Shown piece by piece: positions 6,622 to 8,043 of a DNA stretch of 8,700 nucleotides (positions are counted from its first letter, which is position 1; each line of letters begins with the position of its first letter). The stretch is taken from the NCBI GenBank assembly GCA_025774205.1, contig JALGWK010000207.1, positions 1 through 8,700 on the forward strand, in the 5' to 3' direction. Both the position numbers and the translations under genes were made by a program. The stretch comes from a bacterium (GTDB taxonomy: Bacteria > Blakebacterota > Blakebacteria > Blakebacterales > Blakebacteraceae). Under the pieces are notes generated by a model, which worked only from the letters and a program-made list of their open reading frames with translations, did no database searches and was not told where the DNA came from.

Positions 6622-8043
<1,422 letters not shown>

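Follow-up and report, generated by a model that had tools for sequence, protein, structure and literature searches.

Two conserved segments missing from the only assembled 16S rRNA gene of a draft metagenome genome are best filed as a probable assembly artefact

The 16S rRNA gene analysed here raises the question of whether a bacterial small-subunit RNA can really lack a long piece of its conserved core. The initial annotation of this locus offered a dead rrn copy, a metagenome misassembly and a truncated functional rRNA as options, and chose none of them. The whole stretch of DNA that was analysed, hereafter the window, makes up a complete 8700-bp contig, whose last 102 nt are the start of a 23S rRNA gene, and belongs to a draft genome of 3.09 Mb, in 527 contigs, that is 85.85% complete. 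Upstream of the 16S gene, it carries genes for a transglycosylase-domain protein (PBP1A-like) and TyrRS, as well as tandem beta-propeller genes. The features of the rRNA locus are as follows:

6441..6516, + strand: part of the pre-16S leader, matching the end of a contig from a same-family genome (G002:C251) at 92% identity across 76 nt
6622..8025, + strand: assembled 16S rRNA gene of 1404 nt, matching RF00177; the genome's only 16S
7021..7022, + strand: junction of loss 1, 15 nt gone (E. coli 401-415), the 5′ strand of the h16 base
7582..7583, + strand: junction of loss 2, 111 nt gone, comprising h33/h33a, the 5′ strand of h34 and the h35-h37 region
7671..7684, + strand: 3′ strand of h34 (GATGACGTCAAGTC), kept, its partner gone
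8181..8256, + strand: tRNA-Ala(TGC), in the 16S-23S spacer
8599..8700, + strand: first 102 nt of the 23S rRNA, up to the contig end; the genome has no other 23S

The covariance-model check that had been proposed was run with the Rfam bacterial SSU family (RF00177), and the gene matched the whole model, positions 1-1533, with 1342.8 bits against a membership cut-off of 50, in only 1404 nt of the window. The complete conserved core, formed by the h16 base, h34 and the 1047-1099 block, was not found. The clean junction claimed earlier was borne out: GAACCTTACC occupies 7570-7579 (E. coli 976-985), the left flank ...GAACCTTACCCGG runs to 7582 (E. coli 988) and CAACGAGCG follows directly from 7583 (E. 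coli 1100), with a 1-nt ambiguity in the edges at a shared G; in an uncut gene, the stretch CTTACCCGG would run on into V6 sequence. The 443 nt from C7583 to 8025 were rightly equated with E. coli 1100-1542, and the missing piece, put at about 110 nt, was correct in essence and is now set at 111 nt (E. coli 989-1099). It does hold the near-universal block and the 5′ strand of h34, and its conserved core, GTCGTCAGCTCGTG, was found neither in the window nor in the four genomes of the phylum that were examined. The partner strand of h34 is indeed present, one base to the left of where it had been placed. The suggested CCCG microhomology between the ends was rejected, since a CCCG join predicts ACCCGCAACG and the window reads ACCCGGCAACG, the junction thus having one G too many; with the usual TCCCGCAACGAG as the right side, the two ends share at most one G. 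When refolding at the junction was evaluated, the local fold was no better than that of shuffled sequences (z 0.47), and no replacement fold was favoured.

The earlier view that the gene carries one deletion rather than general divergence stood as regards the normal conservation outside the gap and missed a second clean loss, which reads CAGCAACGC|GCCCTTCGG at 7021/7022 and has the near-universal CGCGTG among its missing bases. The conservation of the remainder was assessed in an alignment of the window, E. coli, a WOR-3 sequence described below and 21 diverse 16S genes, which provided 729 near-invariant positions. Fifty-eight of these are absent from the window 16S, every one of them inside the two gaps. 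Outside the gaps, only 7 near-invariant sites are substituted, against 3-34 in intact genes over comparable position sets, and two of the seven, C1412G and G1488C, form a compensatory pair, the two positions being partners in h44. In an enlarged alignment of 115 sequences, the window had 51 such positions missing and 6 substituted, the median number of substitutions being 9. Additionally, each loss removes one side of a helix, h34 in one case and the h16 base in the other, and the partner strands are unchanged, with no compensating change in either. The window 16S thus reads as normal outside its gaps, and the excess of substitutions at conserved sites expected of an rRNA pseudogene was not observed, which argues against a decaying one.

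These observations weaken the strongest of the alternatives, namely that one or both deletions are real and recent, affecting one of several rrn copies or one strain, so that a dead 16S lies beside an intact copy that was left unassembled. The scarcity of substitutions would also fit a very recent event, and the 25 assembled tRNAs do not include tRNA-Ile, which is frequent in rrn spacers, so that another rrn operon could be missing from the draft; this absence means little, however, because the tRNAs for Met, Lys, Asp, Asn and Phe are also missing. Such a history requires two independent clean losses without other decay, in a gene that has kept its near-invariant sites outside the gaps, with a compensatory pair among the few changes, and in a locus where the leader, the tRNA-Ala and the start of the 23S are all intact. 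A search for other 16S or 23S genes in the 85.85% complete draft, including a second RF00177 match, found none. A literature search on internal deletions or pseudogenes in rrn operons found no matching paper. Given the need for two clean losses, the intact surroundings and the rarity of comparable gaps reported below, a recent deletion is considered unlikely.

The neighbourhood of the gene indicates where the assembly fails. In a same-family genome (G002:C251), the gene order is as in the window, and the contig stops about 105 nt before the 16S. Because the gene order and the leader are shared with this relative, whose contig breaks there, the window holds a genuine rrn locus of the lineage, at a point where assemblies break. 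The leader is strongly conserved, being 92% identical between genera of the family, versus about 65-75% DNA identity in the adjoining protein genes. No complete or assembled 16S was found in the other three of the four genomes examined for the phylum. Among partial 16S hits, many stop near model position 873 or 546. A metagenome misassembly calls for a fragmented draft with contigs ending at rRNA, and this was observed: the draft is in 527 contigs, this contig ends inside a 23S gene and the contig of the relative ends before the 16S.

Losses of a similar kind were also found in protein genes. Relative to a genome of the same genus (G001:C211), an in-frame segment of 174 nt, or 58 codons, is missing at 3499-3500 from the first beta-propeller gene (2485-3633); the window's own third propeller paralogue also has this segment. 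The join of this loss carries a short TCCCGAT-like repeat. The second beta-propeller gene shows a 5-nt loss at 4006-4007 versus G001, a frameshift that divides it between the frames 3620-4111 and 3828-4880, and in G001:C211 (L157) itself 86 nt of a conserved motif are missing from the second propeller paralogue at 11354-11355, which breaks its frame. Clean losses of segments in repeated or conserved sequence therefore extend beyond the 16S, in keeping with an assembly error, although the propeller losses could possibly reflect real recombination between paralogues.

The frequency of such gaps was evaluated by scanning the 84,980 genomes of the GTDB collection, a type of scan from which the window's own record may be omitted, for a shortened distance between the flanks of loss 2. 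Only one other contig with a comparable gap was detected, in the WOR-3 metagenome genome 4484_18 (NMUJ01000052.1), where about E. coli 986-1077 is gone (L034, 3904-3951). This genome was probably assembled with IDBA-UD, as suggested by its dive-4484 bin name and by the use of that assembler for the metagenome of the dive-4484 bins (PMC5569505), the linkage to 4484_18 being by name. The exact junction of the window had no match in the GTDB genomes, and neither the gapped 16S pattern nor a lineage-specific 16S word was found in viral contigs. Among the 115 aligned 16S sequences, a clean gap of such size occurs only in the window, in the WOR-3 contig, which was itself included on account of its gap, and in two records that contain runs of N; as no other aligned 16S shows such a clean gap, chance is not an issue for that of the window. 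One 16S with such a run (G280) has 170 Ns over about E. coli 956-1172. These runs lend weak support to an artefact, since they may be scaffold gaps or masking by the provider. In other genomes, 19 nt are missing around E. coli 385-403 from the 16S of a high-completeness genome (G055:C13, L022), and another 16S (G159:C8, L060), on an 880-kb contig, is cut short around E. coli 821 by 561 or more consecutive Ns.

Judged from the assembled sequence, mis-assembly at conserved stretches of the 16S is the likely explanation of both gaps, and the organism's real 16S very probably holds both missing pieces. This reading is favoured by the two clean losses, the normal constraint elsewhere, the draft state of the genome with contig ends at rRNA, the WOR-3 gap and the losses in protein genes; of the options first proposed, misassembly is thus the best supported, the dead copy is weakened and the functional rRNA is opposed by the one-sided helix losses. 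Conserved 16S regions are described as confounding assembly graphs and yielding fragments or chimeras (PMC7593591, PMC11443906). Near-identical 16S stretches from other community members could tangle the assembly graph in this way, and an assembler or scaffolder could then join the contig ends flanking the unresolved part, leaving that part unplaced and inserting no Ns. We infer that the draft originated from short reads and that such a joining step took place. Against misassembly, no more than 1 nt is common to the two sides of each join, so that a simple path through k-mers would depend on chimeric reads or on a join made by the scaffolder, and the rarity of the gap, with a single other case in the collection, weighs against it as it does against a recent deletion. 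A segment-affinity test for parts of the window coming from different organisms gave no sign of this (r 0.556 versus a background median of 0.555); the result is neutral for the missing segment and gives no support for a chimera.

A functional truncated 16S rRNA in a divergent candidate phylum would be in line with the normal constraint on the remainder and with the absence of any other assembled 16S. However, h34 and the h16 base have each lost the 5′ strand but kept a conserved, unaltered partner strand; the near-invariant residues of 1047-1099, among them the C1054 region at the decoding site, have disappeared; and the junction region shows no favoured fold. Titles and abstracts on deletions of the head or of helix 33 offered nothing applicable. 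This explanation is very improbable, and the specific claim of a candidate-phylum bacterium with working ribosomes whose 16S lacks h33, the 5′ strand of h34, the 1066-1099 region and the h16 base is slightly more improbable still. A fragmented 16S, with the missing piece encoded elsewhere and joining in trans, is just as hard to credit as that claim, since nothing direct speaks for it, although the draft is incomplete, and neither the missing piece's conserved core nor a second RF00177 match was found in the assembly.

The truncation of the window 16S is thus best filed as an artefact rather than as a real feature. This calls for caution, because a 16S from a draft metagenome can pass a full-length covariance-model search and yet silently miss conserved blocks, and trees or probes derived from such a gapped gene would be misled. 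If true and functional, the truncation would overturn the view of which parts of the small-subunit head are indispensable, but the evidence points otherwise.

Compared with known systems, the window 16S resembles the bacterial SSU family RF00177 in its full-length model match and usual domain order, and the locus shares the usual rrn context of leader, 16S, tRNA-Ala and 23S; it differs from the family in lacking E. coli 401-415 and 989-1099, which leaves the partner strands of the h16 base and h34 unpaired. With the metagenomic 16S misassemblies of PMC7593591 and PMC11443906 it has in common the breaks at conserved 16S blocks and the fragmented draft, whereas those cases, in the parts of the reports considered, are fragments and chimeras, and a gapless internal loss such as that of the window is not specifically described in those parts. 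The WOR-3 gene of 4484_18 belongs to an unrelated organism, has its right edge near E. coli 1077 and retains 401-415; like the window, it shows a clean internal loss right after CTTACC (E. coli ~986), in an otherwise normal 16S from a metagenome draft.
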